A stretch of 64,000 nucleotides of DNA. Source: Tepidimonas alkaliphilus. GTDB taxonomy: Bacteria > Pseudomonadota > Gammaproteobacteria > Burkholderiales > Burkholderiaceae_C. The stretch lies in the NCBI RefSeq assembly GCF_007556595.1, contig NZ_VJNB01000010.1:1-64000 (forward strand), in the 5' to 3' direction. The translations under genes and the position numbers were made by a program. Shown in pieces: positions 23,673-51,739 of this stretch (positions within the stretch are counted from its first letter, which is position 1; every line of letters starts with the position of its first letter). The notes below the pieces were generated by a model. It was given only the letters and a program-made list of their open reading frames with translations, was not told where the DNA came from and searched no databases.

Positions 23673-23748
<76 letters not shown>

Positions 23749-23782: not shown

Positions 23783-25429
23783 TCAGCTCGTTTCGGCGCC
23801 CGCCTCCATCGTGCGCAAGCTGACGCCGCCGGGCGGCCGCCCCCCTTTGTCGCCCAAGGCGGCCCGACTCGCCCAAGCGGGGTAGCGCGCGCGCAGCGCC
23901 TGAATGCGTTGCGCCAGCTCGGCCGCGTCGTCGATGCGCGCCTCGTAGCGCTTGAGCGTGCCCCAGGCGGACTCGATGATGCGCGTGTTGCAGGTGGCTT
24001 CGGCGTGCGCCAGCAGCTCCAGCACGGCGGCGCGAGGCTGGCCAGCCAGCACTTGGCGCATGGCCTGCTCCACCAGGCTGAGCACCTCGTGGTGCAGGGC
24101 GCTGAGCCGCTCAGCGTAAGGGGGATGCACCGCGGCGGCTTGCGCCAGCAGCGCGGTCAACGCCTTGGTGCTGCAAAAACGCCGTCCCAAGACGGTGAGG
24201 CGCTCCTCGACCTCCTCCATCTGGATGGCGCGCGCGGCGGTGTGCGCCAGCAGCGTAGCGAGGTTGCAAGCCGCTTCAAAATCGAAGTCCTCATCCAAGA
24301 TGGTGGCCATCATGGCCCGCAGGCGCTCCAGCACGCGCGCCACTTGCGCCTCTTGCAGCAGGTTGGCGATTTCCAGCGTCTGCGCCAAGCGCTGCAAGCG
24401 CCTTGAGTGGGGCTGGCGCTCCAGCACGCGCAGCGCATCATCCAGGCAGCGTTGCAAGCCCTTGCGCTGGCCTGTTTCCAAGTGCATGAAGCCCAACAGC
24501 ACCAGCGTCTGAGCGTCGAACATCTTGGAGTCCAGCCCCAGCTGCGCGCTGCGCGCCAGCAGCTGCTCGGCCAGCTCGCGCTGGCCGCAATAGTGCGCCA
24601 GCATGCCGTGGCGTTGCAGGCGGCTGATCGAATACGGGGTGAGGTCGGTGGCGATTTTGTAGGCGGCCAGCGCCGCGTCGAAGTTGCCTTGCTCGATGTG
24701 CGCGCGACCCAGCACGTCGTAAGCGTCGGGGTAGTGCGGATCGTTGTCGAGCAGCGCTTGCAGCGTGGCGCAGGCTTTTTGCGGCTGGCCCGCATCGAGC
24801 TGCGCGCGCGCCACGCCCAGCCGCGCCCACGGCAACGCTTTGGCTTCGACGACGGCCTCGTAGAGCTGCTGCGCCTCGTCGTAGCGTTGCAGCCGCAACA
24901 GCAGCTCCGCGCCCACGCGCGCGGCGTACAGCCAGTAATCGCCGCGCTGCGCAAAGCGCTGCCGGCACAATTGCGCGGCGCGCTCGAAGTCCTGCGCTTC
25001 CACTGCGGCGAAGATGTCTTTCAGCACCGCTTTGCGGTGGCGCGCCTGCGCGATGCGGGTGGCCAGCTCGTTGGCGGTGAACGGCTTGAGCAGGTAGGAG
25101 TCCAGCGCCGACTCGGCCGCCTCCGCCACCCGCGCGTAAGACGCCTCGGCGGTGACCATGATGAACACGGTGGCAAACGGCAGCAATCCGGCGCGGCGCA
25201 GGTCGTCCAGCAGCGCCTGGCCGGTGCCGTGGTCGTTGGGAAAGTTTTGCTCGCAGACGACGACATCAAAAGTGCGAAATTCCAACAGGCGGCGCGCATC
25301 GGCGATGCGCGGCGCTTGGGCGACGCTGCGCGCGCCGAGGTCGCGCAGTTGGGCCACCAAAATCGAGCGCGAGGTCGGGTTGCCATCGACCACCAGCGCG
25401 GTGGCGTCGTAGAGGTCGCAGGGGATCAT
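23783..25429 (-). CDS. Pseudo-receiver domain plus TPR-like helical protein (paralogue 2)
   Basis: A 548-residue soluble protein. Residues 9-125 form a response-regulator receiver fold (ALVVDGNPTS, FDVVVCEQNF, VTAEAS, SYLLKPF). The position of the phosphorylated aspartate is Glu60, while Asp15, Thr93 and Lys115 are kept. The rest (about 135-540) is helical, with TPR-like pairs such as WARLGVARAQLDAGQPQKAC and YDVLGRAHIEQGNFDAAL. Start at 25429 overlaps the upstream paralogue by 4 bp (ATGA), so it is translated with pilB, pilC and that paralogue. Glu in place of Asp could mimic a phosphorylated state. It probably regulates or scaffolds the pilus machine; that is inference from position. The stop precedes the tRNA gene by 34 bp. 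Confidence 0.82.
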   Translation of the reverse strand: MIPCDLYDATALVVDGNPTSRSILVAQLRDLGARSVAQAPRIADARRLLEFRTFDVVVCEQNFPNDHGTGQALLDDLRRAGLLPFATVFIMVTAEASYARVAEAAESALDSYLLKPFTANELATRIAQARHRKAVLKDIFAAVEAQDFERAAQLCRQRFAQRGDYWLYAARVGAELLLRLQRYDEAQQLYEAVVEAKALPWARLGVARAQLDAGQPQKACATLQALLDNDPHYPDAYDVLGRAHIEQGNFDAALAAYKIATDLTPYSISRLQRHGMLAHYCGQRELAEQLLARSAQLGLDSKMFDAQTLVLLGFMHLETGQRKGLQRCLDDALRVLERQPHSRRLQRLAQTLEIANLLQEAQVARVLERLRAMMATILDEDFDFEAACNLATLLAHTAARAIQMEEVEERLTVLGRRFCSTKALTALLAQAAAVHPPYAERLSALHHEVLSLVEQAMRQVLAGQPRAAVLELLAHAEATCNTRIIESAWGTLKRYEARIDDAAELAQRIQALRARYPAWASRAALGDKGGRPPGGVSLRTMEAGAETS

Positions 25430-27108
25430 GCCGCGGATCCTGCGATCGCCAAGGGGTTGAGCCGATTCAGCACCGCCAGGGCGATGCCGCCGGCGGGACG
25501 CAGTCGTGGGTCGCCCAGCAACGGGCGGCGCCGCATGGCCGTCAGCGCTTGACGCCACGGGCTGAGGCGGCGCCGCCACTCGCTCGCCTCGGGCAGCGCC
25601 GCGCCGTGCCGCTGCAACGCCAGCCAGGCAGTGTCCACCGCCCGACCGTTGAGGGTCTGCAAGGCCAGCTCGCCCAATTCGGCCAGCCCGTGTGACGGCG
25701 AGCCGTGGTTGATCAGATGCAGCGCCTGCTCGATCCGCTGCACGATGGCGGCTTCGCACTGTCGCAGCTGCTCGGCGTAGGGTGGATGCGCCTCAGCGGC
25801 GCGAGCCAGCAGCTCACTCATCGCCTTGGAGACGCCAAAGCGCAGGCCCAGCCGCTGCACCAGCGCCGGTTGAGGCGGCAAGGCGCCGTGTTGCGTGAGC
25901 GCGGCCAGCGCGGCCAGCAGGTTGCAGGCGGCCTCTGCGTCGAAATGGGGTTGCGCGCAGTCTTGCATCCAGCGCGCCACCTCCGCGCTGACGTCGCGGC
26001 CGTCGTGAGCGTCGCGCAGCGCCTCAACCAGATGGCTGAAACGCTGCAGCCGCTCATCATCGGGCGCAGCATGGGTCCGCCGGCGCAGCTCGGCGTCTTG
26101 CCGATGCAACGCGTCGGCGTCGCCGCGCTCAAAGGCGGCCAGCGCCAGCAAGACCAGACTTTCGGCGTCGAACATTTTGGAGTCCAGCCCCAGCGTGGCG
26201 GCGCGTTGCAACAATTCCACGGCTTGGCGGCGGTCGCCGAGAAAAAACGCCAGCATCCCCAGGCGCTGCTGGCGTCCGATGGCCAGCGGCGTGGCGGCCA
26301 GCGCGCGCGCAAGGCTGTCCAAGGCGTCGGCGAATTGGCCCAATTCCGTCTGAGCGCGCGCCAGCGCGTCCAGCGCGTCGGTGTAGTCGGGGTGCAGCTC
26401 CAGCAGCCGCTGCAGGGTGATCAGCGCCGCAGCCGCCGCGCCATCGTCCAGTTGGCAGCGCGCCACGCCCAGCAGCGCCCAAGGCTGCGGGTCGGAGTCC
26501 CAGATCGACTGAAACAGCGCTTGCGCTTGTCCCAGCCGGCCCCGTCGCATCAGGATTTCGGCGCCCCAGCGCGCCGCTTGCAACGCCTGGGGGCCCCGGC
26601 TGGCGAAGCGCTGCAGGCAGCGCTCGACCGCCTCATCGGCGCGGCCGTCTTCCAGCAGTTGGTGGATGTCGTCCAGCGCGGCTTTGCGCCGCTGCGCTTG
26701 CTCGATGCGATCCAGCAGCGTGCCGGTTGAAAAAGGCCGCACCAGGTAGCTGTCCACGGCGGATTCGGCGGCTTCGATCACCTTGGGGTAGGTGGCTTCG
26801 TCGGTGATCAGGATGAACACCGTGCGATACGGCAACAGGCCGCTGCGGCGCAGATCGTCCAGCAACGCTTGGCCCGTGCCGCCGTGCGCAAAGCTGTCGC
26901 CGCAGACCACCACGTCGAAGGTATGGCGCTCGATTTCGCGGCGCGCGTCATCCAGCCACCCCACCTGGGCGACGCTGGCAAAGCCAAACGCGCGCAATTG
27001 CCCGGCCAGCGTCATGCGGGCCGTGGGGTGGGCTTCGGCTACCAGCGCGGCTGACCCTGGCCCGATTGCCGGCCGCGCTGCGGGGGCAGTCGCGGCCGGG
27101 GTCGTCAT
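25426..27108 (-). CDS. Pseudo-receiver domain plus TPR-like helical protein (paralogue 1)
   Basis: A 560-residue paralogue of the next gene downstream, alignable over its length (for example TGQALLDDLRR, LGLDSKMFDAE/Q, AEAHPPYAE are shared or nearly so). The receiver-like domain (about 18-137) is more decayed: Glu25 in the acidic pocket, Gly70 at the phosphorylation site, and Arg124 for the conserved Lys. It cannot be phosphorylated in the normal way. The remaining ~420 residues are helical TPR-like repeats. It overlaps pilC by 4 bp (ATGA) and the next gene by 4 bp, an unbroken coupled set. A pilus-related role is inferred; no family name is known to me. Confidence 0.82.
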   Translation of the reverse strand: MTTPAATAPAARPAIGPGSAALVAEAHPTARMTLAGQLRAFGFASVAQVGWLDDARREIERHTFDVVVCGDSFAHGGTGQALLDDLRRSGLLPYRTVFILITDEATYPKVIEAAESAVDSYLVRPFSTGTLLDRIEQAQRRKAALDDIHQLLEDGRADEAVERCLQRFASRGPQALQAARWGAEILMRRGRLGQAQALFQSIWDSDPQPWALLGVARCQLDDGAAAAALITLQRLLELHPDYTDALDALARAQTELGQFADALDSLARALAATPLAIGRQQRLGMLAFFLGDRRQAVELLQRAATLGLDSKMFDAESLVLLALAAFERGDADALHRQDAELRRRTHAAPDDERLQRFSHLVEALRDAHDGRDVSAEVARWMQDCAQPHFDAEAACNLLAALAALTQHGALPPQPALVQRLGLRFGVSKAMSELLARAAEAHPPYAEQLRQCEAAIVQRIEQALHLINHGSPSHGLAELGELALQTLNGRAVDTAWLALQRHGAALPEASEWRRRLSPWRQALTAMRRRPLLGDPRLRPAGGIALAVLNRLNPLAIAGSAA

Positions 27109-28319
27109 ACCACAGCCCCGAGTTTGAAGATCGGCAGGTACATCGCCACCACGATGCCGCCGATGAGGCCACCCAGCACAACGATGATGATGGGTTCCAG
27201 CAGGCTGGACAAGCCCGCCACCATGTCATCGACTTCCTGCTCATAAAAATCGGCGGCCTTGCCAAGCATGTGGTCAAGCGCGCCGGATTCTTCCCCGATG
27301 GCGCTCATTTGCAGCACCATCGATGGAAACACCCCGGTGGCGGTCATCGCCTGCGTCAGGGCGGTGCCGCTGGCCACATCTTGCTGGATCTTGGCGGTGG
27401 CGTCCGCATAGACCGAGTTGCCGGCGGCGCCGCCCACCGAATCCAGCGCTTCCACCAGCGGCACGCCCGCCGCAAACATGGTGGACAGCGTGCGCGTCCA
27501 GCGCGCTACAGCTGATTTTTCCACCAGTTGGCCAAAAATCGGCACGCGCAACAGCAGCCGATCCATGACGCGCTGCACTTTTTCGCTGCGCTTCCACGCT
27601 TGGAAAAAGAAATACAGCCCGCCGCCCAGCGCGCCAAAAATCAGCCACCAGTAAGCCACAAAGATTTCGCTCAGGGCGATCACGGCCAGCGTCGGGGCCG
27701 GCAAGTCGGCGCCGAAGGAGTTGAACACCTCCTTGAACGCGGGCACGACAAAAATCATGATCACCGCCACCACGATGAACGCCACGATCAACACCGCCGT
27801 GGGATACATCAGCGCGGATTTGACTTTGCTTTTGAGCGCTTCAGTTTTTTCCAGGTAAGTGGCCAGCCGCTCCAGGATGTCTTCCAGAATGCCAGCGGCT
27901 TCGCCGGCTTCGACCAGGTTGCAATACAGCGGGCTGAAGTAGGCCGGATGCTTGCGCAGCGCCGCCGACAGCGAGGTGCCGGTTTCGACGTCGGAGCGGA
28001 TTTCATAAAGCAGGCGCGTCACGCTCGGATTGGGGTTGCCGCGGCCCACGATGTCAAACGCTTGCAGCAATGGCACGCCCGCTTTCATCATGGTGGCCAT
28101 CTGCCGCGTGAAGATGGCGATATCTTTGGGCTTGATGCGGCGGCCCGAGGCGAAGCGGCGCTTGCGCACCTTGAGCACCACGATACCTTGGCGGCGCAGC
28201 TGGGCCTGCACCTGAGCCTCGCCGGCAGCGCGCAGTTCGCCTTTGATGATTTTGCCGTTGCGGTCTTTGCCCTCCCATTCAAAGACGTGTTCGCGAACGG
28301 TCGATGTTGCCGTGGCCAT
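27105..28319 (-). CDS. pilC: Type IV pilus inner-membrane platform protein PilC
   Basis: A 404-residue GspF/PilC platform protein with two T2SSF domains (about 70-195 and 275-395) and three membrane segments (near 175, 225 and 380). Family motifs: FTRQMATMMKAGVPLLQAFDI and the paralogous TRTLSTMFAAGVPLVEALDSV. The ATG at 28319 is preferred over 28328 because an AGGA Shine-Dalgarno is 9 bases before it but abuts the upstream ATG. It lies 48 bp after pilB and overlaps the pseudo-receiver gene. No pilD is present, unlike the common pilB-pilC-pilD order. Confidence 0.95.
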   Translation of the reverse strand: MATATSTVREHVFEWEGKDRNGKIIKGELRAAGEAQVQAQLRRQGIVVLKVRKRRFASGRRIKPKDIAIFTRQMATMMKAGVPLLQAFDIVGRGNPNPSVTRLLYEIRSDVETGTSLSAALRKHPAYFSPLYCNLVEAGEAAGILEDILERLATYLEKTEALKSKVKSALMYPTAVLIVAFIVVAVIMIFVVPAFKEVFNSFGADLPAPTLAVIALSEIFVAYWWLIFGALGGGLYFFFQAWKRSEKVQRVMDRLLLRVPIFGQLVEKSAVARWTRTLSTMFAAGVPLVEALDSVGGAAGNSVYADATAKIQQDVASGTALTQAMTATGVFPSMVLQMSAIGEESGALDHMLGKAADFYEQEVDDMVAGLSSLLEPIIIVVLGGLIGGIVVAMYLPIFKLGAVV

Positions 28320-28367
28320 GGAACGCATTCCTCTTGGTGTGACCGTTTGGCGGCGCCCAGCGGCCCA

Positions 28368-30119
28368 TTAACCCTCGTGGGTCGCCGACAGCACCTCCTC
28401 CAACGACGTGATGCCCATCTTAACCTTGCGCAGGCCGTTTTCGCGCAGGGTGCGCACGCCTTCGCGGCGCGCCTGCGCGGCGATGTCCAGCGCATGCGCG
28501 CCGCGCAGGATCAATTGCTGGATCGCCTCGCTGACCGGCATCACTTGATACAGCCCAATGCGGCCCTTGTAGCCGTCGTGGCAGGCCGGGCAGCCCACCG
28601 CTCGAAACGGCTGCCAGCCGTCGGCCAGATCCTCCTCGGTGAAGCCAGCTTGCAGCAACGTCTGCCGCGGCAGGCCGCGGTGCGGTTGCTTGCAGTGCGG
28701 GCACAAGCGCCGCACCAGCCGTTGCGCGGTGATCAAGTGCACGCTGGCGGCGATGTTGAGCGGCGCCACGCCCATGTGCATCAGGCGCGTCAGGGTGGAG
28801 GGCGCATCGTTGGTGTGCAAGGTGGACAACACCAGATGGCCGGTCTGCGCCGCTTTGATGGCGATGTCGGCGGTTTCCAAATCGCGGATTTCGCCGACCA
28901 TGATGACATCGGGGTCCTGGCGCAAAAACGCGCGCAGCGCGGCTGCAAAGGTCAAGCCAGCCTTTTCGTTGACGTTGACCTGATTGATGCCGGGTAGGAT
29001 GATTTCGGCTGGGTCTTCGGCGGTGGAGATGTTGACCCCAGGCTGGTTCAGCAGGTGGAGGCAGCTGTAGAGGGTGACGGTCTTGCCCGAGCCGGTGGGG
29101 CCGGTGACCAGCACCATGCCATGAGGGCGCTGGATGGCGGCCAGCAGGCGGGCTTGCTCGTCCGGTTCGTAGCCCAGCGCGTCGATGCCCATTTGCGCGC
29201 TGCTGGGGTCCAGGATGCGGATGACGATTTTTTCGCCGAACAACGTTGGCAGGGTGCTGACGCGAAAGTCGATGACCTTGTCCGGCGCGACGCGCAATTT
29301 CATGCGCCCGTCTTGCGGCACGCGCTTTTCTGCAATGTCCAGCCGCGACAGCACCTTGATGCGCGCAGCCAGCCGGTCTTTGATGGCCAGCGGCGGCGCG
29401 GCCACCTCCCGCAATTGGCCGTCGATGCGAAAGCGCACGCGATAAAACTTTTCATACGGCTCAAAATGCAGGTCGGAGGCGCGCATCGCGTAAGCGTCCA
29501 GCAGCATCTTGCGCAAAAAACGCACGATCGGCGCGTCTTCCACTTCCGCGGCCACCGGCTCGGCGTGCACCGTCTCGATGGGCGGTTCGGGCAAGCCAAA
29601 GTCGATGGTCTCGTTCGCCGTGGGCGCCGGCTGGCCTGGCGCATTCCCTTCGGCGTAGCGCTGCACCCAGCGATCCAGCTTGTCCACCTCGGCTACCACC
29701 CAGTCCACCTGCAGCTGGGTTTCGAATTTGACTTTCTCCGCGGCCAGGGGGTCGGACGGGTCGGCGCAGGCCAGCGTCAGCCGGTGGCCGCGCCGTGCCA
29801 GCGGCAGCAGGCGGAATTGCTGGCAAGTGCGGGCCGACAGCACGCCATACGGCAGCCGTTGCGGATCGACCGCGTCCAGGTCGATCAGCGGGGCGGCAAA
29901 GGCCGCCGACATGATGTGCGCCAGCTCGCGCGGCGACACCGCGCGCTGCTCAATCAACTCGGCAATGAACGAGCTGCGCTTGCGTTGCGCATCGGCGTAA
30001 AGTTGCCGGGCGCGCGTCAGCGTCAACGCTCCTTGAGCGATCAAGGCGCGCGCCAGACCCGGCAGCGCCATCGTGGCGGCCAACTCACCGTCCGGGTTTG
30101 GCTGGGGTTCGGCGGTCAT
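28368..30119 (-). CDS. pilB: Type IV pilus assembly ATPase PilB
   Basis: A 583-residue extension ATPase. An N-terminal MshEN/T2SSE_N domain (about 30-150) precedes the catalytic part with Walker A GPTGSGKT (340-347), Asp box EDPAE, Walker [11 protein letters not shown] and His box [13 protein letters not shown], then the zinc tetracysteine (CPHC, CPAC). The start at 30119 gives a normal PilB length; the open frame continues upstream across the accB promoter region but without conservation. It is divergent from accB with 96 bp between starts. Confidence 0.94.
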
Positions 30120-40914: not shown

Positions 40915-42117
40915 TCAGCGCACCAGCTGGTTGAGCTGGATGATCGGCAGCATCACCGCCAGCACGATCAGCAGCACCACGCCGCCCATGGCGATGATCA
41001 GCAGCGGCTCCAGCCACGTGGTCAGCCGCAGCAGGCGGCGCTGGGCGTCGTCGGCCAGCTGCTGCGCCGCGCGCTGCAGCAGGGGGCCGAGCTGGCCGGT
41101 CTGCTCGCCCAGCCGCGCAAACGTCACCAGCAGGCCGGCGAGCGCCGGGCGCGTGGCCAGCGCCGCGGCCAGCGGCGCGCCTTCGCGCACCAGCGCCAGT
41201 GCTTCGTGCACGTCGCGCTGGAGTGCGGTGTTGCGCAGCGTGTCGGCGGCGGTGGCCAGCGCCCGCAGCAGCGGCACCCCGGCCTGCACCAGCAGCGCCA
41301 GCGTCGCGGCCAGCCGCGCCACGTCGAGCTGGCGCGCCAGCCGCCCCAGCAGCGGCAGGCGCAGCCACGTGCGGTCCAGCGCCAGCCGCGCCGCCGGTTG
41401 CCGCCGCGCCAGCCGCCAGGCCGCCACCCCAGCGGCCAGCAGCGGCAGCAGCGTCCAGCCCCAGCCGCGCAGCCAGGCGCTCGCCTGCAGCACCAGCACC
41501 GTCAGCGTCGGCAGCGCGCGCTGGCCGCTGGCGAACGCCTGCGCCACCTGCGGCACGACGTAGGTCATCAGGAACACCACGATGACCAGCGCGAAGGCGG
41601 TGACGATGGCCGGGTACAGCAGCGCCGACAGGATGCGCTGGCGCAGCGCCTCGGTGGCCTCGCGCTCGTCGGCCAGGCGCTGCAGCACGGTGCCCAGGCG
41701 CCCGCTGGCTTCGCCGGCGGCCACGACCGCGCGGTACGGCGCATCGAACACGCGCGGATGGCGCGCAAGCGCCGCCGCCAGCGTGCTGCCGGCGTTGACC
41801 TCGGCGCGCAGCTCGGCGACGAGGGCCTGCTGCGCGGCGTCGTCGGCCTCGCGCGCGAGTTCGGCCAGCGCCCGCTCCAGCGGCAGGCCGCTGTCCACGA
41901 GCGCGGCCAATTGCCGCGTCCACGTCGCCAGCCGCGCCGCCGGCCAGCGGGGCGCGCCGCCACGGGCCGGGGCCGCTCCTTCGAGCGCCGTGACCTGCAG
42001 CGGCACCAGACCCTGCGCGCGCAACTGGGCGCGCGCGGCGCGCGCGTGTTCGGCCGCCAGCGTGCCGCGCTGGCGCCGTCCGTGCGCGTCGAGGGCCTGG
42101 TAGCGGAAGGTCGGCAT
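40915..42117 (-). CDS. gspF: Type II secretion inner-membrane platform protein GspF
   Basis: A 400-residue platform protein with two T2SSF repeats (TWTRQLAALVDSGLPLERAL near 85 and LAATLALLVQAGVPLLRAL near 290) and three hydrophobic segments. It follows gspE by 26 bp and is distinct from pilC at 27-28 kb. Confidence 0.95.
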   Translation of the reverse strand: MPTFRYQALDAHGRRQRGTLAAEHARAARAQLRAQGLVPLQVTALEGAAPARGGAPRWPAARLATWTRQLAALVDSGLPLERALAELAREADDAAQQALVAELRAEVNAGSTLAAALARHPRVFDAPYRAVVAAGEASGRLGTVLQRLADEREATEALRQRILSALLYPAIVTAFALVIVVFLMTYVVPQVAQAFASGQRALPTLTVLVLQASAWLRGWGWTLLPLLAAGVAAWRLARRQPAARLALDRTWLRLPLLGRLARQLDVARLAATLALLVQAGVPLLRALATAADTLRNTALQRDVHEALALVREGAPLAAALATRPALAGLLVTFARLGEQTGQLGPLLQRAAQQLADDAQRRLLRLTTWLEPLLIIAMGGVVLLIVLAVMLPIIQLNQLVR

Positions 42118-42143
42118 CGCGGGTCGGCAGGGCTTGGGGTCGC

Positions 42144-43559
42144 TCAGTCGCGCGTCACGCGCCAGACTTCCTCGGCGGTGGTGACGCCCTGCGCCACCAG
42201 CGCGTCGCCGGCCTGGCGCAGCGGCACCAGGCCGTGTTGCAGCGCGTGCGCGCGCAGCGCGGCTTCCGGCGCGCGGTCGTGGATCAGGGCGCGCAGGCCC
42301 TCATCGACCACCATCAGCTCGAACAGCCCCGTGCGCCCGGCGTAGCCGGCCTGGCCGCAGTCGGCGCAGCCGGCGCCGCCGCAGGCCGGGCAGACCTTGC
42401 GCACCAGCCGCTGCGCCAGCACGCCCAGCAGGGAACTCGCCAGCAAAAACGGCTCGATGCCCATGTCCACCAGGCGCGTGACGGCGCTGGGCGCGTCGTT
42501 GGTGTGCAGCGTGGCCAGCACCAGGTGGCCGGTCAGCGACGCCTGGATGGCGATCTGCGCGGTCTCCTGGTCGCGGATTTCGCCGATCATGATGACGTCG
42601 GGGTCCTGGCGCAGGATCGCGCGCAGCGCCGTGGCAAACGTCAGGTCGATCTTCGGGTTGACCTGCGTCTGGCCGATGCCGGGCAGCTCATATTCGATCG
42701 GGTCTTCCACCGTCATGATGTTGAGCCGCTGCGCGTCCAGGCGCTTCAGCGCCGCGTAGAGCGTGGTGGTCTTGCCGCTGCCGGTGGGGCCGGTGACGAG
42801 CACGATGCCGTGCGGCTGCGCGATGAGCCGCTCGAACGCCTGCAGCGTGGCGCCCTGCATGCCGACGGCCTCGAGGCTGAGCACGCCGTCGGACTTGTCC
42901 AGCAGGCGCAGCACCGCGCGCTCGCCGTGGGCGCTGGGCAGGGTGGAGACGCGCACGTCCACCGCGCGGCCTCCCAGCCGCAGGGCGATGCGGCCGTCCT
43001 GCGGCAGGCGCTTTTCGGCGATGTCGAGCTCGGCCATGATCTTCAGGCGCGAGATCAGCGCCGCGTGCAGCGCGCGGTTGGGCTGCACCACCTCGCGCAG
43101 CGTGCCATCGACGCGGAAGCGCACGCTGGAGTGGCGCTCGTAGGGCTCGATGTGGATGTCGCTGGCGCGCTCGCGCACCGCCTGTGTCAGCAGCGCGTTG
43201 AGCATGCGGATGATCGGCGCGTCGTCGGCGGCTTCGAGCAGATCCTCGATCTGCGGCAGCTCCTGCATCAGGCGCGACAGGTCGGCTTCGCTTTCGACCT
43301 CGCTGACGATGGCCGCAGCGGTGCTGCTGCCGTCGGCGTAGGCGGCCTGCAGCCGGGCGTCGAAGGCGGCGGCGGGTTCGCGCTGCAGCCGGCAGGGGCC
43401 ATGCACGCGCTGCGCCTCGGCGATGGCGGTCAGCTGCGCGGTGGGCAGAGGGGCCGTGGTGTCGGCGCGCACGATCAGCCAGCGCTCGCCGCGGTCCACG
43501 TGCAGCAGCACGCCGTGGGCGCGCGCCCAGGGGTAGGGGAGCGGATAGGCGGGGTTCAT
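42144..43559 (-). CDS. gspE: Type II secretion ATPase GspE
   Basis: A 471-residue secretion ATPase. A short N1 domain (about 1-100), then N2 and catalytic regions with Walker A GPTGSGKT (257-264), [17 protein letters not shown] and [13 protein letters not shown]. The C-terminal zinc site is [13 protein letters not shown], a four-cysteine cluster closer than usual. The start overlaps the end of gspD by 4 bp. Third PilB/GspE-type ATPase in the window. Confidence 0.95.
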
Positions 43560-45733
43560 GGCGCGGTCGGGGCAGCGGAAGGCGGTGCCGGGACGGCCGC
43601 GTCGGCGGGGATGGCCACGCCGGGCCAGCTGGGCGGCAACAGCGGGGCGTCCTGGATGGGATGCAGGCGGCTGGGTTGCGGTTGCGCTTGCTGCTGCAGG
43701 CTGCGCATCCACTGGTAGCGGTCCAGCGCCAGCGCGTCGGCGGCGCGCGCGTCGCGCACCACCACCGGGCGCAAAAACACCATCAGGTTGGTTTTTTTGC
43801 GCGAGCGCTTTTCGCTGCGGAACAAGTGACCCAGCACCGGCACGTCGCCTAGCCCCGGTACCTTGTCCTGATTGCCGCCAAACTCGTCCTGCAGCAGCCC
43901 GCCCAGCACGACGATGCCGCCATCCTCCACCAGCACGGTGGATTCAATCGAGCGCTTGTTGGTGATCAGACCGCTGGGGTTGTTGATGGAGCTCGGCAGC
44001 ACGCTGCTGACTTCTTGAAAGATTTGCAGCCGCACCGTGTCGCCATCCTGGATTTGCGGCCGCACGCGCAACGTCAGGCCAACGTCGCGCCGCTCAATGG
44101 TCTGAAACGGGTTGACCGCGCCCTGGTTGCTGTTGTTGGCGGTGTATTGCCCGGTGATGAACGGCACGTTCTGACCGATGACGATCTTGGCCTCTTCGTT
44201 GTCCAGCGTCAGCAGCGTCGGGGTGGAAAGAATGTTGGCGTCGCCTTGGGTTTCAAGAAACCGGGCCAAGGCGCTCAGCACATAAGTGCCGCCGATGCGC
44301 TGCGCCAGGCCGATGTTGAAGCCCGGCGCCGGCAACTGGCCCTGGCCGCCATTTTGCGTGGCCAAGTTAAGGATGTTGGCCCCGCCGCTGCCGAAGTTGG
44401 TGCCGAGCAGCCCGATGGCGCCGTCGCCGCTGCGCCCGATGATGCTTTGCCACTGCACGCCGATCTCGGAGGCTTTTTCGGCGCTGACCTCGGCGATGAG
44501 GCTTTCGACATATACCTGCGCGCGGCGCACGTCGAGCAAGTCGATGATGCGTCGCAACTCGCGATACAGCGGCTCCGGCGCCGTGATGATGAGCGCGTTG
44601 TTGGCAGGGTCGGCCTGCACCTGACCGCCTGTTGCCGCGGTGCTGGCGGGCGCGCTGGCGTTGAGACGAGCGCCGGCGCTGGAGACGTTGACGCTGGCGG
44701 CGGCGGGCGCAGCGTTGACCGACGTCGTCGAGCCGCTGGGCGAGACGCTTGCACTCGTGCTCGGATTCGTGGCGACGCCGTCTGCAGCGGGGGGCGCGCC
44801 GCCGGCAGCTCCAGCCAGCGCGGCGCGCAGCGTCGTGGCCAGCTGCACGGCGTCGGCGTGGCGCAGATACACCACATGGATGTTGGCCGCCGCGCTGGCA
44901 GCGCTGGGCCGATCGAGCTTGTCGATCAGCGCTTTGGCCAACTGCAGCCGCGCCGGGTGACTGGCGCGCAGCAGCAGGCTGTTGCTGCGCGGGTCGGCCA
45001 GCACCGTGGTGCGCGGCCCGCCCGGCGTGCGGTTGGGGCCGGGGGCGCCGTCGTCGTCGAGCAGCTGGCGCAGCCAGCCGACCACGTCGGTGGCGATGGC
45101 GTGCTTGAGCGGCACCACCTCCAGGTCGGTGGCGGTGCCGACGTCCAGCGCCGCGATGATGCGCGCCAGCCGCTGCAGGTTGTCGGCGTAGTCGGTGATG
45201 ACCAGGGCGTTGTGCGTGTTGTTGACGGTGATCGGGTTGTTTGGGCTGATCAGCGGGCGCAGGATCGGCAGCAGGTGGTTGGCGTTCTCGTGCTGCAGGC
45301 GAAAGATCTGCGTGACGAGCAGGCCGTCGCGCGCCGGGGCCGGCTCCTCGGTCAGCACCGGGCCGCCGAGCAGCTTGGCCTCGGCCTCCGGCACGATTTT
45401 CAGGATCCCGGCCGACTCCACCAGCGCGAAGCCGCGCAGCCGCAGCTCGGCGCCGAACTGCGCCAGCGCTGCGGCGGGGCGCACCGGCGACTCGGTGATC
45501 AGCGTCAGCGGCCCCTTGACGCGCGGATCGACGACGATGGCGCGTCCGGTGGCCACGGCCAGCGCCCGCGCCACGGCCTCGATCTCGGCCTCGACGAAGT
45601 TGAGCGTGATCGGCTGGCCGGGGCGGATCGCCGGCGGCGGGGTCTGCGCGGCCAGCGGGCCGGCCAGCGCCGCCGCCAGCAGCGCCCGCGCCGCGGCGCG
45701 GCCCAGGCGGACGGAGAGGGTGGCGTCGTTCAT
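43556..45733 (-). CDS. gspD: Type II secretion secretin GspD
   Basis: A 725-residue outer-membrane secretin precursor with a signal peptide (about 1-29, ending PLAAQ). The N0 domain opens with [17 protein letters not shown], followed by N1-N3 repeats with [16 protein letters not shown] and similar motifs. A Ser/Thr/Ala-rich insert of about 75 residues (roughly 320-395) interrupts an N-domain loop. The secretin core includes the VPFITGQYT and [10 protein letters not shown] segments. Start overlaps gspN by 4 bp. Confidence 0.95.
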
Positions 45734-46533
45734 GCGGGGTTTCCGATGCGCAGGTGGGCGCGCGCGCCGTCGCGGCGGCCCAGCAGGTTGAGCAGGTTGG
45801 ACAGGGCTTCGAGCCGATCGGGGTTGGCCTCGGCCAGTCCCTGCAGCTGCAGCCGGCCGCCGGGCCAGCCGCCGCTGGCCTGCAGCCGCAGGTCGCCGCG
45901 CAGCGTGGCCAGCTCGAACGTCGGCGCGGCGCCCGGTGCGGCCTGCAGGGTGAGCCGGTAGCTGCCCAGCGGCCGCAGCGGGCTGACGGCGGAGGCGACG
46001 TCGAGCAGCTCGACGGTGACCGAGGCGGGGGCGGCCGTGGCTGCGGCGGCGGGCGCCCTAAGCGGCCAGCGCAGCGCCGGCAGCGCCAGGTGCGCGCGCC
46101 CTTGCAGTCCGAAGGTGTTCCACGGCGCGCCCAGCGCCTGCAGCCAGGCCAGATCGAGCTGGGCCTGCCACGGTTCGGCCTGCAGCCACCAGCCGCCGTC
46201 GCGCCGGGCCAGCGTGGCGCGCCAGGGCGCGTCGGCGGTGGCGTCGGGCTGCAGCGTCAGGCGCGCGCCGAGGGTGGCGAGGTCGGGCGAGAGCGTCCAG
46301 CGCAGCCGCCCAGGCAGCGTCAGCGCCGCGCCGTCGCCGGCCACGCGCAGCACGCCGGAGCCGGCCCACAGCGTGCCGGCCGGCTGCAGCAGCCGCAGCC
46401 GGCCGTCGCTGGCGGCGGCCAGCGCCACGTCGGCCCAGCGCGCCGGGGCCCAGGCGACGCTGGCAACCAGCACGCCCAACAGCGCGCCCAGCGCCGCGGC
46501 GCGCCAGGGGGGGCGGGAGCCGCGCGCGTTCAC
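45730..46533 (-). CDS. gspN: Type II secretion protein GspN
   Basis: A 267-residue membrane-anchored periplasmic protein. One hydrophobic segment near residues 11-30 is followed by beta-rich sequence. The GTG at 46533 overlaps gspM (GTGA), with a GGAGG Shine-Dalgarno upstream. GspN is not essential in all type II systems. Identification rests on position, length and a GspN-like pattern (GTLWAGSGVLRV). Confidence 0.85.
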   Translation of the reverse strand: MNARGSRPPWRAAALGALLGVLVASVAWAPARWADVALAAASDGRLRLLQPAGTLWAGSGVLRVAGDGAALTLPGRLRWTLSPDLATLGARLTLQPDATADAPWRATLARRDGGWWLQAEPWQAQLDLAWLQALGAPWNTFGLQGRAHLALPALRWPLRAPAAAATAAPASVTVELLDVASAVSPLRPLGSYRLTLQAAPGAAPTFELATLRGDLRLQASGGWPGGRLQLQGLAEANPDRLEALSNLLNLLGRRDGARAHLRIGNPA

Positions 46534-47027
46534 TGGGCGCCTCCCATGGGGGCAAGGCGCGCCTGGCCGCGCCAGAGCTCGCCCTCGCGCTGCAGGTCGA
46601 GTTCGACCACCTGCAGCGCCAGCCGCTCGCGCACGGCCACCAGCCAGTGCGCCAGCGCCTGTGCCGGCACGCCGGCCAGCTCGACGCGCCAGCCGCCACC
46701 GTCGTCGGCGCGCACTTGGGCGCTGGCGCCAAGCCGTTCCTGGGTTAGCGCGCGCACCGCCTCCAGCGTGGCAGGGAGAGCGGTGCTGGCGTCGGCGGCG
46801 GCTTTGCGCTCGGCCAGCGCCTGCGCCAGTGCGGCGGTGCGCTGCGCCTGGGCCTGGGCGTGCGCCAACCGCTGCGGGGCCTGCTGCAGCGCGCGCCAGG
46901 CGGGCCACGCCACGCCGAACCCCCACGCGAGCAGCAGCCCCAGCGCCAGCAGCAGGCCGGCGTGCCGACGCAGCGGCGCCGGCAGGCGCGCGGTGAGCGT
47001 CGGCAGCGCGGCGCGGACCGCCGTCAT
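46530..47027 (-). CDS. gspM: Type II secretion protein GspM
   Basis: A 165-residue bitopic inner-membrane protein. A single helix (about 24-44) follows a short cytoplasmic N-terminus, and a periplasmic coiled segment rich in Ala/Gln precedes a ferredoxin-like fold. It pairs with GspL in the inner-membrane platform. Overlaps gspL and gspN by 4 bp each. Confidence 0.85.
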   Translation of the reverse strand: MTAVRAALPTLTARLPAPLRRHAGLLLALGLLLAWGFGVAWPAWRALQQAPQRLAHAQAQAQRTAALAQALAERKAAADASTALPATLEAVRALTQERLGASAQVRADDGGGWRVELAGVPAQALAHWLVAVRERLALQVVELDLQREGELWRGQARLAPMGGAQ

Positions 47028-48265
47028 TGCCCGGCCTCCGCTTGCAGCCGCCACACCGGGCCGCTGTCCTCGGTCACGGTCAGCCCAGCGGCGCGGGCGG
47101 CGGCGCGCACCTGCGCGGCGGGCGGGGCGGCATCCCAGCGCAGTTCCAGTCGATCCCCTTGCAGACGCACCTGCTGCGGCGGCGGCCCGCCCAGCGCGCC
47201 CCAGGCGTGCAGCCAGCGCTCCAGCACGCCGGGGGCCGCCGGTCCGCCCAGCCGGGCCAGCGCCTGCGCAAGCTGGCGCGGCGGGTCGAGCAGCACCGGC
47301 GCCTGCGGCAGCGCCGCGCGCGCGATGCGCTGGGTCTCGGCGTGCAGCGCGCGCTCGGCCTGACGCGCCTGCCAGGCGGCCAGCGGCACGGCCAGCAGCG
47401 GGACGGCGACCCCCGCCGCCACGCCCCAGCGCGCCGGCGCCCAGGCCGGATCGGTGCCGACGGCGCGCATGGCGCGCAGCGCCCGCTGCCACCCCGCGCC
47501 GCCGATGCGCCGCCGCCAGGCAAACTGCGCCAGATCCGGCCTGTCGCGCCCAGCGTCGGCCCAGCGCCGCGCCGCCGGCAGCGCCTGCCAGGGGGCCTGC
47601 GGTCGCGCTGCGCGCGCGTCGTCGAAGGCGGCTGGATCGGCGGTGTAAGTCAGCGAGGCCGACCATGCGTCGCGGGCGGCCTGGTCGTCGTCCTGCGGCA
47701 TACCGGGTGGCAGCAGTGCGTCGAGGTCGGTCAGCGGCACGGCGGCCACGCCGTGCGGCCCGGCCAGCACCGCCATCGGCGCGCCGTCCAGCGCGTGCAC
47801 CCACAGCACCGGCGCGGGCTGAGGGTAACTTTCAGCCAGCAGCCGCTGCACGGTCCACCCAAGGTCCTGCAAAGCCGCCACGGTGGCGTGCAGGCGCTCT
47901 TCGCGCGTCACGGCGACCCAGGTGTGGCCCTGTGGCGCCGCCGGCCCCAACGCCCAGTGCAGCCGGTCGGGGGGATCCAGCACCTCGTCTTCCAACAAGC
48001 CGGCCAGCGCCTGGGGTGTTCGAGCCGCACGCTGGGCGGGCAAGGCCACCGCATGCCATGCCAGCCAGCCGACGGGCAGCGCCAGCGCGACGTGCTCGCG
48101 GCGACCCAAAGCGGCCAACTCATCCGCAGGGGCGCGCCCCTGAGCCTGCACCGCGCCGGAGGCATCCAAACGGGCCCAATGCCAAGCCGATGGCGCAGCT
48201 TGCGGCGTAGCGCCGGCGGGTTCGGTCTCGGATGCGCAGCGGTCAACGGGGCGCAAAATCAGCAT
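47024..48265 (-). CDS. gspL: Type II secretion protein GspL
   Basis: A 413-residue inner-membrane protein linking GspE to the platform. The actin-like cytoplasmic part covers about 1-255, a membrane helix lies near 270-290 (GVAAGVAVPLLAVPLAAW), and a periplasmic domain follows. The ATG at 48265 gives the expected N-terminus; upstream in-frame sequence lacks conservation. Follows gspK by 43 bp. Confidence 0.87.
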   Translation of the reverse strand: MLILRPVDRCASETEPAGATPQAAPSAWHWARLDASGAVQAQGRAPADELAALGRREHVALALPVGWLAWHAVALPAQRAARTPQALAGLLEDEVLDPPDRLHWALGPAAPQGHTWVAVTREERLHATVAALQDLGWTVQRLLAESYPQPAPVLWVHALDGAPMAVLAGPHGVAAVPLTDLDALLPPGMPQDDDQAARDAWSASLTYTADPAAFDDARAARPQAPWQALPAARRWADAGRDRPDLAQFAWRRRIGGAGWQRALRAMRAVGTDPAWAPARWGVAAGVAVPLLAVPLAAWQARQAERALHAETQRIARAALPQAPVLLDPPRQLAQALARLGGPAAPGVLERWLHAWGALGGPPPQQVRLQGDRLELRWDAAPPAAQVRAAARAAGLTVTEDSGPVWRLQAEAGQ

Positions 48266-48308
48266 CGGCGGTGCGGCAACGTCGCGGCGCGGCAAGCATA
48301 GCACCGCC

Positions 48309-49256
48309 TCAAGGCAGGCTGGCGGGCCCGGCCACGCCTTGCTGGCGCCACAGCACCTCCACCCGCGCTCCATTGCGGCGCAGCAGCGCGGTCTGCTGCA
48401 CAGTGAGCTCGCCCAGCCGCAGCTGTCCGGTGACGAGAAAGTGCTGGCTGCTGACGCTCAGCAGCGCGGGCTGCCATGAGGCCGCCAGTCGTGGCAGCGC
48501 TTCCACCAGCGCTTCGGTGCGCTCGAACGGGCGCTGGTTGCGCAGCGCGAGCAGACGCTGCGCTTCGGCGCCGTCCAGCCCGGCGATGGCGGCGCGCAGC
48601 ACCACGGGGCCGGCGGTGTTGAGGTTGACCGGCGTTGGCTGCGGCAGCCAAATGGTGTGCGGGGCCAGTCGCGCCCAGCTCGCGGCGCTCAAGCCCAGCG
48701 CTTGCAGGTCAGCGGCGCGTTCGGGCAAGGGGTGTCGCGCCGGGCGCTGCGGCCCGGCGGGCCAGGCTTGCTGCAACGCTTCGGCTACTGCGCGTAACTC
48801 TTCTGGGGGCAGATCCAGTTGCGCGTAAAGTCGCTCGAACGCCGCCAGCGCCATGGGGTTGAGGCGCGGCGTGGCACCGGTGACGTCGATGAGGTTGCGC
48901 CAGTTCAGGCGCGCCTGCGCGTCTTCGATACGGCCGGCCAGCCACGCGTCGTCCAGCACGTCGGCGCCGTCGTCGGCGCTGGCGCGCAGGAAGGTGGACA
49001 GGCGCGTCGGCTGCAGCGGCACCGCCCACGGCTCGGCCAGGTGGTCGGTGCGCGAGGCGCGACCGTCCTCGCGCACGATCAGCCGCGCCCAGTCCAGCGC
49101 CCCGGTCAGCAGCCACGCGGCCTGCGCCTGGTCGCGCGCGGCGCGCTCCACGGCCCAGGCGCGCCACTGCAGGCTCCAGGCGGCGGCCCCCAGCGTGGCC
49201 ACCACCGCCATCAGCATCAGCGCCATCAGCAGCGCCGCGCCGCGCGTGCGCCTCAC
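48309..49256 (-). CDS. gspK: Type II secretion minor pseudopilin GspK
   Basis: A 315-residue minor pseudopilin capping the pseudopilus tip. Short leader ending at RG, then the hydrophobic helix AALLMALMLMAVVATLG with no Glu at position 5, as is usual for GspK. The large globular domain has the T2SSK motifs LNWRNLIDV and TPVNLNTAGP. The GTG at 49256 overlaps gspJ (GTGA) and has a G-rich Shine-Dalgarno. Confidence 0.92.
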   Translation of the reverse strand: MRRTRGAALLMALMLMAVVATLGAAAWSLQWRAWAVERAARDQAQAAWLLTGALDWARLIVREDGRASRTDHLAEPWAVPLQPTRLSTFLRASADDGADVLDDAWLAGRIEDAQARLNWRNLIDVTGATPRLNPMALAAFERLYAQLDLPPEELRAVAEALQQAWPAGPQRPARHPLPERAADLQALGLSAASWARLAPHTIWLPQPTPVNLNTAGPVVLRAAIAGLDGAEAQRLLALRNQRPFERTEALVEALPRLAASWQPALLSVSSQHFLVTGQLRLGELTVQQTALLRRNGARVEVLWRQQGVAGPASLP

Positions 49257-49861
49257 GACTTGCCCCCGGCGACGCGGGCGGAGGCCCAGTCCAGCGTCAG
49301 GGCGCCGTCGAAGCCGGTGCCGGCGGCCGGCACCAGCACCAGCCGCACCGCGGCGGGGGGTACCCCCTCGGCGCCCGCGGGGCTCCACTGCGCGCCGTCC
49401 CACACCCGCACCTCGGCGGCGCTGATGGCCACGGTACGCACGCCGTCGGCGCGCACGCGCTGCGGGGCCTGCGCCCACGCCTGCGCCAGCGCCTCCCGCG
49501 TGGTCAGCGGCGGCGACTGCCAGCGCGCCCAGCGTCCGCCATCATCGACCGCGGCCCACGCCACCACCTGCCAGCCGGCGCCGTCGGCGGCGTGGCGCAG
49601 CAGGCGCACCGTGCCACCCTGCAGCGACCAGGCCGGCGGCGGGTCGATGGCGCCGTCCGCCGGCATCACCATCTGGTCGAGATCGCGCTGCCACTGCGCC
49701 AGTACGTCGGCCCAGCCGAGCTGCGCGGCGCTGCGCGCCTCGGTGGCTTCGCGCACGCGCAGCAGCCCGTCTAGCGCGCGCCAGCCGAGCGTGGCCAGCA
49801 GCGCCAGCACCGCCAGCGCGGTCAGCAGCTCGATCAGCGTCAGGCCCCCGGCGCGGCGCAT
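49253..49861 (-). CDS. gspJ: Type II secretion minor pseudopilin GspJ
   Basis: A 202-residue pseudopilin. The prepilin leader MRRAGG is followed by LTLIELLTALAVLALLATLGW, in which the Glu at position 5 is present. The globular domain contains WQRDLDQMV, typical of GspJ. The start at 49861 gives a correct leader and lies 11 bp downstream of the gspI stop. Confidence 0.93.
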   Translation of the reverse strand: MRRAGGLTLIELLTALAVLALLATLGWRALDGLLRVREATEARSAAQLGWADVLAQWQRDLDQMVMPADGAIDPPPAWSLQGGTVRLLRHAADGAGWQVVAWAAVDDGGRWARWQSPPLTTREALAQAWAQAPQRVRADGVRTVAISAAEVRVWDGAQWSPAGAEGVPPAAVRLVLVPAAGTGFDGALTLDWASARVAGGKS

Positions 49862-49872
49862 CGTCGGCCCCG

Positions 49873-50280
49873 TCAGTGCCGGCCGAGCACGGTGGTCAGC
49901 CGCGTCAGCACCAAGTCGCTGCCGGCAGGCCGCACGCGCACCTCGACGCGGCGAAAGCTCGGGTTCGGCGTTGGGTCGATGGCGATCTGCACCGTGTGCT
50001 CCACGCCGCCCTGCGTGCAGGTGAGCTCGCGCGTGCCGGGGGGCGGGAAGGCCGGCTCCAGCCGCAGCGCGACCTGCGCGTTGTGCGCGCACAGCTGTGC
50101 CAGCCACTGGGCCGGCTGGCGCTCGGCGGTGCGCAGCAGGGCCTGGCCGGCCTGCTGGGCGGCCAGCGCCGCGGTGGCGACGATCGCCAGCGCCACCAGC
50201 ACCTCCACCAGCGTGAAGCCGCCGGGGTTCCGGCGGCGCGGGACGCCCGGGCGGGGGGCTGCGGCGGGTGCGGGCGCCAT
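49873..50280 (-). CDS. gspI: Type II secretion minor pseudopilin GspI
   Basis: A 135-residue pseudopilin with a long, Pro/Ala/Arg-rich leader ending RNPGG before FTLVEVLVALAI. An ATG at 50280 is chosen because GGAG lies 8 bases upstream; a GTG at 50289 overlapping the gspH stop is the alternative. Two cysteines (CAHNAQ, LTCTQGG) fit GspI. Confidence 0.88.
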   Translation of the reverse strand: MAPAPAAAPRPGVPRRRNPGGFTLVEVLVALAIVATAALAAQQAGQALLRTAERQPAQWLAQLCAHNAQVALRLEPAFPPPGTRELTCTQGGVEHTVQIAIDPTPNPSFRRVEVRVRPAGSDLVLTRLTTVLGRH

Positions 50281-50285
50281 GCGGT

Positions 50286-50759
50286 TCACTCCACGCGCAC
50301 CGCGCCCCAGCCGTCGAAGGCCAGCGTGCGCGTGCGCTCGCCGTGGCGCAGCGTCAGCCGCCACGGCGGGCCCATCGGTTCGGTGCCGAGCTTGAGCGTC
50401 GGCTGCGGCGGCTCCAGCGTCAGCGCCACGTTCTCGAGCGGCCACGGGCGCGCGCGCGGCAGTTCGGGCAGCGCGCCCTCCGGCAGGCCGCGCCAGCGCA
50501 GGCCCTCGGCGTCCCAGGCCAGCTCGGCACGGGTGTCGCTGGCGCGCGCCAGCGCCCGCACGGCCTCGATCTGGTCGCGCAGTTCGGTCGCCAGCCGATC
50601 CAGCCGCCGGTCGGCGTCGCCGCGCCACGCCTGCACGACGCCGACGCTGGCGATGCCGACGATGGCCAGCACCACCAGCAGCTCCAGCAGCGTCAGCCCG
50701 CGCGGGCGCCGCGGGCCCCAGGCGGGCGCAGGGTCACTGCCAGCTGCCGATGTCGGCAT
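50286..50759 (-). CDS. gspH: Type II secretion minor pseudopilin GspH
   Basis: A 157-residue pseudopilin. Leader ending RPRG before LTLLELLVVLAIVGIAS. The start at 50759 overlaps the end of gspG by 26 bp and has GAGG 7 bases upstream. The globular part is short but has the expected beta-rich pattern. Confidence 0.88.
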   Translation of the reverse strand: MPTSAAGSDPAPAWGPRRPRGLTLLELLVVLAIVGIASVGVVQAWRGDADRRLDRLATELRDQIEAVRALARASDTRAELAWDAEGLRWRGLPEGALPELPRARPWPLENVALTLEPPQPTLKLGTEPMGPPWRLTLRHGERTRTLAFDGWGAVRVE

Positions 50760-51180
50760 CAGCGCCCTCGCCGCCGGGCTGGCCGTCGGCGCCGAGCGAA
50801 AACACATCCACCTCGCCGTGCACACCAGGGTTCAGGTATTGATAGGGGCGGCCCCAAGGATCGTTCGGTAATTTATCGAGATACGGGCGCCAGTTGGGCG
50901 CGGGCGGCCCCGACGTTGGCCGCTGCACCAGCGCCTGCAGACCTTGCTCCTGCGAGGGATAACGCTGGTTGTCCAACCGGTAGAGCTTGAGCGCCTGCAT
51001 CAGGTTGGCCACGTCCGCGCGCGCGGCGGTGACGCGCGACTCCTCGGCGCGGCCGATGACGTTGGGCACGATCAGCGCCGCCAGCACCCCGATGATGACG
51101 AGGATGACCAGCAGCTCGATCAGCGTGAAGCCCCGCAGGACGCGGCGGGCGGAGGGTGCAGGCGCGCAGGCGGATGTCAT
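50734..51180 (-). CDS. gspG: Type II secretion major pseudopilin GspG
   Basis: A 148-residue major pseudopilin. A leader ending RG precedes FTLIELLVILVIIGVLAALIVPNV. The C-terminal PNDPWGRPYQYLNPG and VFSLGADGQPGGEG segments are the calcium-site loop typical of GspG. First gene of the minus-strand gsp run; the start at 51180 is 22 bp from the divergent gspC start, so any promoter must lie inside the start of one gene or the other. Confidence 0.95.
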   Translation of the reverse strand: MTSACAPAPSARRVLRGFTLIELLVILVIIGVLAALIVPNVIGRAEESRVTAARADVANLMQALKLYRLDNQRYPSQEQGLQALVQRPTSGPPAPNWRPYLDKLPNDPWGRPYQYLNPGVHGEVDVFSLGADGQPGGEGADADIGSWQ

Positions 51181-51202
51181 GGCAACGATGATAATGCAGC
51201 CC

Positions 51203-51739
51203 ATGACGCCGCCTGCCGTTCCCCCTGTCCGCCCGCCGCCCGTTTGCCGCTGCCGCGCGCATGGGCGGGCGCGGCTGCCCGCGCTGGCCGCGCTGCTCGC
51301 GTGGGGGGTGGCCGGCTGGCTCGCGGCGGCGTGGGGCTGGCGGCTGTGGGGGCAGGCGCAGGGCGTGGCGCCTGCGGCGCCGCCGCCGTCGTCGGCCCCG
51401 GTCGCGCAGGCGGAGACGATGGCCCGGGCGCTGGGCGGTGGGGAGGGCGTGGCCGCAACCCCGCCGCCGGCGCCGGCTGCCGTAGCCGCTGCTGGCGCGG
51501 CGTGGCGCCTACTCGGTTTGGTGGCCGATGGCGGCGGGCGCGGCGCGGCGCTGCTCGCTGCCGACGGCCAGCCCGCCAGGCCCTACCGCGCGGGTGCGGC
51601 GCTGCCGGACGGCTGGCGCGTGCAGCGCATCGAGCGCGACGGGGTGTGGCTGAGCCCGCCGCAGGGCGGCGAGGTGGTGCGACTGCCCGCGCCGGTGCGG
51701 CCGGCGGCATCGACTGCGGCGCCGCCGCCCGGCGGTTGA
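51203..51739 (+). CDS. gspC: Type II secretion protein GspC
   Basis: A 178-residue bitopic protein coupling the platform to the secretin. The membrane helix is at about 24-48 (ALAALLAWGVAGWLAAAWGW). After a Pro/Ala linker comes an HR domain (WRLLGLVADGGGRGAALLAADGQPARPYRAG, shown in parts). No PDZ or coiled C-terminus is present. ATGs at 51194 and upstream are in frame, so the start is uncertain. Divergent from all other gsp genes here, as in Burkholderia. Confidence 0.85.
   Translation: MTPPAVPPVRPPPVCRCRAHGRARLPALAALLAWGVAGWLAAAWGWRLWGQAQGVAPAAPPPSSAPVAQAETMARALGGGEGVAATPPPAPAAVAAAGAAWRLLGLVADGGGRGAALLAADGQPARPYRAGAALPDGWRVQRIERDGVWLSPPQGGEVVRLPAPVRPAASTAAPPPGG

Follow-up and report, generated by a model that had tools for sequence, protein, structure and literature searches.

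We describe two adjacent genes, A (P0001) and B (P0002), in a 64,000-nucleotide stretch of Tepidimonas alkaliphilus DNA (the window), which lie directly behind the pilus genes pilB and pilC and encode proteins with a receiver domain (REC) followed by tetratricopeptide repeats (TPR). Both receivers have lost the phospho-acceptor aspartate; they are kept by selection, have no kinase gene beside them, and stand in the same place behind pilC across the genus. The architecture itself is already known from the VieB-like class (PMC2222644), and the A/B operon is a genus-specific variant of it. We tentatively favor, somewhat short of even confidence, the view that A and B are phosphorylation-independent docking adaptors, co-made with the pilus motor and possibly acting on it.

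Architecture of A and B behind pilC

An earlier note on this DNA had placed two receiver-TPR paralogues of 560 and 548 amino acids (aa) behind pilC; its coordinates were exact, and Pfam matches to both domains and structural models agree with it. The two proteins are 44% identical over a 536-column alignment. The note's description of 4-bp overlaps throughout the unit held for the pilC/A and A/B junctions (both ATGA), but not for pilB and pilC, which are separated by a 39-bp gap. The features, each with its source, are as follows.

28368-30119, minus strand: pilB, pilus extension ATPase, 583 aa (Pfam T2SSE 499 bits, MshEN 58.6 bits)
27105-28328, minus strand: pilC, inner-membrane platform protein, 407 aa (Pfam T2SSF 232.9 bits)
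27105-27108, minus strand: ATGA overlap of pilC and A (sequence)
25426-27108, minus strand: gene A, REC-TPR protein, 560 aa (Pfam and AlphaFold2 model)
26689-27054, minus strand: A receiver domain, residues about 19-140 (Pfam Response_reg 22-136; model strands and helices)
26899-26901, minus strand: A codon 70, encoding Gly where CheY has Asp57 (alignment to CheY)
25531-26673, minus strand: A TPR-like solenoid, residues about 146-526 (Pfam TPR_19 and others; model helices)
25426-25429, minus strand: ATGA overlap of A and B (sequence)
23783-25429, minus strand: gene B, REC-TPR protein, 548 aa (Pfam and AlphaFold2 model)
25040-25402, minus strand: B receiver domain, residues about 10-130 (Pfam Response_reg 12-126; model)
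25250-25252, minus strand: B codon 60, encoding Glu where CheY has Asp57 (alignment to CheY)
23867-25021, minus strand: B TPR-like solenoid, residues about 137-521 (Pfam TPR_16 and others; model helices)
23673-23748, minus strand: tRNA-Ala(cgc), directly downstream of B and not part of the pilB-pilC-A-B unit (ARAGORN)

The best NCBIfam match of pilC was PilC NF052606 (420 bits, under that model's 700-bit cut-off). Both A and B exceeded the Pfam receiver cut-off of 30.2 bits (36.3 and 54.3 bits, respectively), and TPR profiles hit the middle region of each. AlphaFold2 models, for which the input alignments comprised 56 and 41 proteins taken from the window and the loci, showed a receiver fold and, after it, a solenoid of helices, in line with the layout given in the earlier note (B: predicted local distance difference test (pLDDT) 89.2, predicted template modeling score (pTM) 0.82; A: pLDDT 91.7, pTM 0.88). 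In Foldseek, the receivers matched CheY (template modeling scores by target 0.88-0.90 for B and 0.85-0.87 for A); the solenoids matched TPR superhelices, O-GlcNAc transferase among them.

Receiver active sites

We aligned both receivers to CheY, whose D12, D13, D57, T87, Y106 and K109 we take as markers of the site; positions such as Asp57 are given below in CheY numbering. B carries D15, G16, E60, T93, Y112 and K115 at these positions, and A carries E25, A26, G70, T102, Y121 and R124. The earlier note had named Glu60, D15 and K115 of B and Gly70, E25 and R124 of A correctly, and had missed that the second Mg-binding acid is gone from A and B alike. Measured against the residue set of a phosphorylatable response regulator (two acids, D57, T87, K109), neither protein qualifies, A reading E, A, G, T, R and B reading D, G, E, T, K. 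Both show the sequence features of FrzS-type pseudo-receivers, namely a receiver fold, no acceptor Asp and a retained switch Tyr; judged by these residues, the A and B receivers are pseudo-receivers.

An ordinary two-component output, in which phosphorylation of the receivers persists at a different residue or by an unusual route, would be in keeping with the retained Thr87 and Tyr106 and with Lys115 of B. We nevertheless consider it highly improbable, because the acceptor Asp and the second acid are both lost in A and in B, and on this point the earlier note, which had argued for degenerate receivers outside ordinary two-component signaling, was right.

Constraint on the receivers

We compared nonsynonymous (dN) and synonymous (dS) divergence across eight other Tepidimonas loci (median pairwise values). 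The receiver of A gave dN 0.068 and dS 0.555, against 0.204 and 0.623 for the rest of the protein; similarly, the receiver of B gave 0.060 and 0.567, against 0.131 and 0.632 for the rest, and pilC gave 0.051 and 0.541. The ratios of median dN to dS were thus about 0.12 for receiver versus 0.33 for the rest in A, and about 0.11 versus 0.21 in B. When the window was added to the comparison, the receiver-to-rest ratio of amino-acid divergence was 0.50 for A (95% confidence interval 0.37-0.67) and 0.53 for B (0.33-0.77). These results indicate that the silent receivers are kept by selection, and, since they are more constrained than the rest of each protein, that they probably function as pseudo-receivers. 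We rejected the idea that the receivers are decaying as in a pseudogene, which the dN/dS and divergence ratios make unlikely.

A and B within the VieB-like class

REC-TPR proteins are described as the VieB-like class of response regulators (PMC2222644; PMC4352251), and the earlier note's statement that no described family exists does not stand. A and B belong to this class by sequence, and were set beside VieB by its description, not by VieB's own sequence. As described, VieB of Vibrio cholerae resembles them in its N-terminal receiver, TPR region, C-terminal half without a recognized domain and lack of a DNA-binding domain, whereas it has an acceptor Asp62 and lies in a putative operon with its kinase (PMC4352251); A and B have Gly or Glu at the acceptor, lack the second acid and stand behind pilC with no kinase gene next to them. 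VieB binds the kinase VieS and inhibits it; VieB D62A inhibits like the wild type and D62E more weakly, and neither mutant is phosphorylated (PMC4352251). Among the open-licence papers listed in literature searches, no title or abstract opening described a REC-TPR pair behind pilC.

A and B are homologous beyond the receiver to canonical REC-TPR proteins (those with Asp57 and the acidic pair), many aligning over at least about 300 residues at order and class level. Matches at E ≤1e-20 were found in 79/200 genomes of the order sample and 34/274 of the class sample, and Asp57 was kept in all 35 aligned order- and class-level homologues. A distant order-level REC-TPR gene (locus L150 6910-8532, genome G231) reads by eye as Glu12, Ser13 and Glu57, and may be an independent change to Glu.

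For a residue series, we assembled 123 homologues, keeping identical proteins once and merging rows identical over the last 300 residues; L045 was left out and L091, apparently the same gene, used instead, and L087, a short match, stayed outside the residue table though its locus holds a small kinase. Forty-six rows had Asp57 with the acidic pair, 12 had Asp57 without the second acid, 49 had Glu57 and 16 had Gly, Ala or Ser at 57, the last mostly with Arg109. Thr or Ser was present at 87 in 65/65 of the Glu57 and Gly/Ala/Ser57 rows, and Tyr106 in 64/65. Divergence of receiver relative to rest was 0.66 for Glu57 and 0.53 for Gly/Ala/Ser57 rows, no higher than the 0.77 of canonical rows, a rough comparison as the canonical group is more diverged.

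A small histidine kinase (roughly 200-270 aa and bearing HDLKN or HDMKN in seven examples; a HATPase_c domain in the one scanned) was encoded in the fetched locus of 32/46 canonical rows and of 1/12 rows with Asp57 only. None was seen in the fetched loci of the 49 Glu57 or the 16 Gly/Ala/Ser57 rows; loci L029-L057 and L106-L140 span about 1.5 kb per side, so for these the count covers immediate neighbors only. The small-kinase profile matched 15 times in the Tepidimonas alkaliphilus genome, most strongly to a 476-aa open frame (63.5 bits), and none of the matches lies beside A or B. Locus L074 (7051-11010, genome G033) encodes a canonical REC-TPR protein, a small histidine kinase and a degenerate REC-TPR protein (Asp57, Ser13) in a row, a possible intermediate. 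By eye, REC-TPR genes also lie near dnaK-dnaJ in L068, L070, L072, L078, L079, L095-L097 and L103; at what is apparently one site they are either canonical with a small kinase (L078, L079) or degenerate without one.

The frequent placement of canonical relatives beside a small kinase, the arrangement in L074 and the behavior of the VieB mutants would together suit a VieB-like action, in which A and B bind one or more kinase transmitters and hold down phosphotransfer, Glu60 acting as a weaker inhibitor and Gly70 as a constant one. We regard this as decidedly unlikely, as no row with Glu57 or Gly/Ala/Ser57 has a small kinase in its fetched locus, and the comparison with VieB is one of descriptions.

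Naturally occurring members of the REC-TPR family run from a phosphorylatable regulator with its kinase next to it to an acceptor-free receiver that is still the more constrained part of its protein, and the family is a good system for asking how receivers keep a function without phosphorylation.

Coupling to pilC in Tepidimonas

A scan of GTDB genomes gave 26 loci, L001-L009 and 17 others. A and B were both present in all of L001-L009, eight of which are named Tepidimonas (L004 is a metagenome-assembled genome named Hydrogenophaga), and the order pilB-pilC-A-B was found in all eight of these nine loci that extend far enough (L007 starts inside A). Each junction, pilC/A (GTGA) and A/B, showed the 4-bp overlap in 7/8 other Tepidimonas loci, the exceptions being L004 (+2) and L005 (+9). 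Furthermore, A and B were adjacent in 10/11 genomes of the Tepidimonas sample; the eleventh, 73% complete, gave no match. In the window, accB-accC lies on one side of pilB-pilC-A-B and the plsC side on the other. Because A follows pilC without a gap and the reading frames overlap down to B, joint production of both proteins with the pilus motor is probable, and the coupling across the whole genus makes an action on PilB/PilC plausible.

Proposed function and its alternatives

The mechanism that we favor would begin in a kinase-free branch of the REC-TPR family with loss of the second Mg-binding acid; Glu would then have replaced the phospho-acceptor Asp, as seen in B, and on the A branch the acceptor would have become Gly, Ala or Ser together with a change of Lys109 to Arg. 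Without a phosphate switch, one partner would be held by the receiver face, where Thr87 and Tyr106 persist, and another by the TPR groove. Should A and B follow the logic of VieB, A would be locked in the form that binds, and B in a weaker version of it. Probably co-produced with the pilus motor, A and B may act, by analogy with FrzS and SgmX, on the motor, its assembly or its placement; their gene order suggests that they may have a pilus role.

FrzS of Myxococcus xanthus acts in pilus-driven motility through a receiver without acceptor Asp (PMC1974792). It resembles A and B in the missing acceptor, the replaced second acid and the retained switch Tyr, and its part in pilus-driven motility without Asp phosphorylation resembles the role proposed here; it differs in having a coiled coil instead of TPRs, in keeping the Lys and in having Gly for Thr, and is likened at the receiver only (PMC1974792). 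SgmX, also of M. xanthus, is a TPR protein that interacts with the FrzS pseudo-receiver and brings about PilB localization at the pilus machine; it has 14 TPRs and works with the GTPase MglA, and the available part of the source names no receiver in it (PMC11580455). If the pilus link is true, A and B would be a case independent of FrzS of a pseudo-receiver controlling the pilus motor.

Several results weigh against this reading, beginning with the proposed order of losses. Our FastTree tree of the 123 rows was rooted by choice on the kinase-bearing rows, the root not being inferred; it separates 38 rows, 32 of which have a small kinase in the locus, from a branch of 85 rows, of which 1 has it, with Asp57 receivers that have the acidic pair and no kinase seen nearby close to the base of the latter. 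The minimum number of changes on the tree is 8 for residue 57 (Asp, Glu or other), 2 for residue 13 (Asp or not) and 5 for kinase presence. The absence of the kinase and the decay of the receiver fall, in essence, on a single split of the tree, and an independent-pairs test of kinase against Asp57 had only 4 usable pairs (median p 1). We rejected kinase presence versus Asp57 as a repeated correlation, it being essentially one clade-level split with too few pairs. In addition, the receiver of the window's own A has evolved faster than those of its sisters (dN 0.154 at dS 0.715 in pairs with the window).

The window's A also has a long terminal branch (0.38, versus 0.03-0.10 for the sisters closest to it). 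It alone has lost the first acid (E25), the other 14 A-type rows having Asp, bar one that starts past the position.

The contrary results extend to the pilC linkage. The 17 other loci of the scan are named as Comamonadaceae genera or unplaced Burkholderiales/Betaproteobacteria and have one B-like gene each; pilC was beside that gene in 0/17 within the stored flanks (three of these loci are less than 6 kb in length), and among the fetched orphan-branch loci it was visible in 1/30, more than 5 kb off, and adjacent in none. The earlier note had proposed looking for the pair behind pilC in other Burkholderiales; among the loci examined, the order pilC-A-B occurs only in Tepidimonas, and linkage to pil genes does not reach beyond one genus. 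The note had also taken frequent occurrence of either gene without pilC as telling against its proposal; this is what the family shows, while within Tepidimonas the coupling is kept (8/8 loci). Its graded pair serving the pilus motor is accordingly borne out in the coupling to pilC but not in the wider family, where 39 of the 49 rows with Glu57 come from proteins other than Tepidimonas B and have no pilC beside them where flanks were examined, and where A-type Gly57/Arg109 genes occur in five genera (G057, G073, G089, G106, G137) with no full-length B-type copy listed.

Co-occurrence with type IV pili was rejected as evidence. PilP is present in 140/150 genomes of the taxonomic family; a REC-TPR match (E ≤1.2e-67) was found in 55/150, with PilP in 53/55 of these versus 87/95 of the others, the two positives without PilP being G102 and G104 (65% and 76% complete). 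Because type IV pili are near-universal there, co-occurrence says nothing.

These points bear on the alternative that A and B serve as pseudo-receiver adaptors in a process that has nothing to do with pili; fusion into the operon would then be a by-product of rearrangement that supplies only a promoter. Neighbors vary by lineage: ureD, aspS, dnaJ, plsC and an HD-domain/kinase cluster (ureD and the cluster named by Pfam; aspS, dnaK-dnaJ and plsC-pyrC by reading of sequences) each lie next to homologues in some lineages only, and no neighbor shared by all lineages outside Tepidimonas was found as a pathway clue. Apart from pilC being adjacent only in Tepidimonas, A-type genes in G089 and G073 lie near plsC-pyrB without adjacent pilC. 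Moreover, a tRNA-Ala lies within about 80 bp of B in 6/8 loci (L001, L002, L003, L005, L008, L009) and at a distance of 1.4 kb in L006, and none was found behind B in L004; as it is mostly kept, conserved gene order is not confined to the pil unit. Against a process unrelated to pili stand the overlapping or nearly overlapping pilC-A-B genes in 8/8 Tepidimonas loci reaching pilC, while the next protein genes beyond B match those of the window in only 3/6 loci with an 8-kb flank (L001, L003, L005) and were not seen within it in L002, L004 and L006. We consider this alternative possible, if doubtful; with no such pilC linkage elsewhere, a chance fusion is nearly as likely as an action on PilB/PilC.

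A bolder form of the adaptor reading makes A and B dedicated accessory subunits of the Tepidimonas pilus motor, in which Glu-locked and silent receivers on TPR arms clamp or position PilB/PilC, having arisen independently of FrzS and SgmX. This we regard as unlikely; if true, it would mean phosphate-free control of pilus extension.

The place of pilD and a possible route to pilC

The earlier note had remarked that A and B sit where pilD is expected, and the comparison of pilC loci agrees. Thirty loci were fetched as the best matches among the 57 genomes with a match (60 searched), 28 of them not Tepidimonas; pilD was near pilC in 25/28 of the latter, in one (L175) with a gene between, and was not seen there in 3/28. 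The only prepilin-peptidase match in the Tepidimonas alkaliphilus genome is on another contig (C1), with zapD nearby. Beside zapD, L149 3719-5359 encodes a 546-aa protein that is AAA-ATPase/nuclease-like by eye.

Two genomes may preserve earlier arrangements (liv transporter, plsC and pyrC named by reading of sequences). In G106, pilB-pilC is followed by a branched-chain amino-acid transporter (liv) cluster on the other strand, then by A, back on the strand of pilC, and plsC lies some 8 kb farther on; G073 is similar, except that several further genes separate pilC from the transporter and that plsC-pyrC-pyrB immediately follows A. The simplest account would be that pilD left pilC in an ancestor and that the transporter cluster was later lost in Tepidimonas, bringing A, with B, directly behind pilC with overlapping genes.

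Other features of the window

Apart from pilB-pilC, a type II secretion-like cluster occupies 40915-51204 on the minus strand, where the translations read by eye as GspF-, GspE-, GspD-like and pseudopilin-like proteins.

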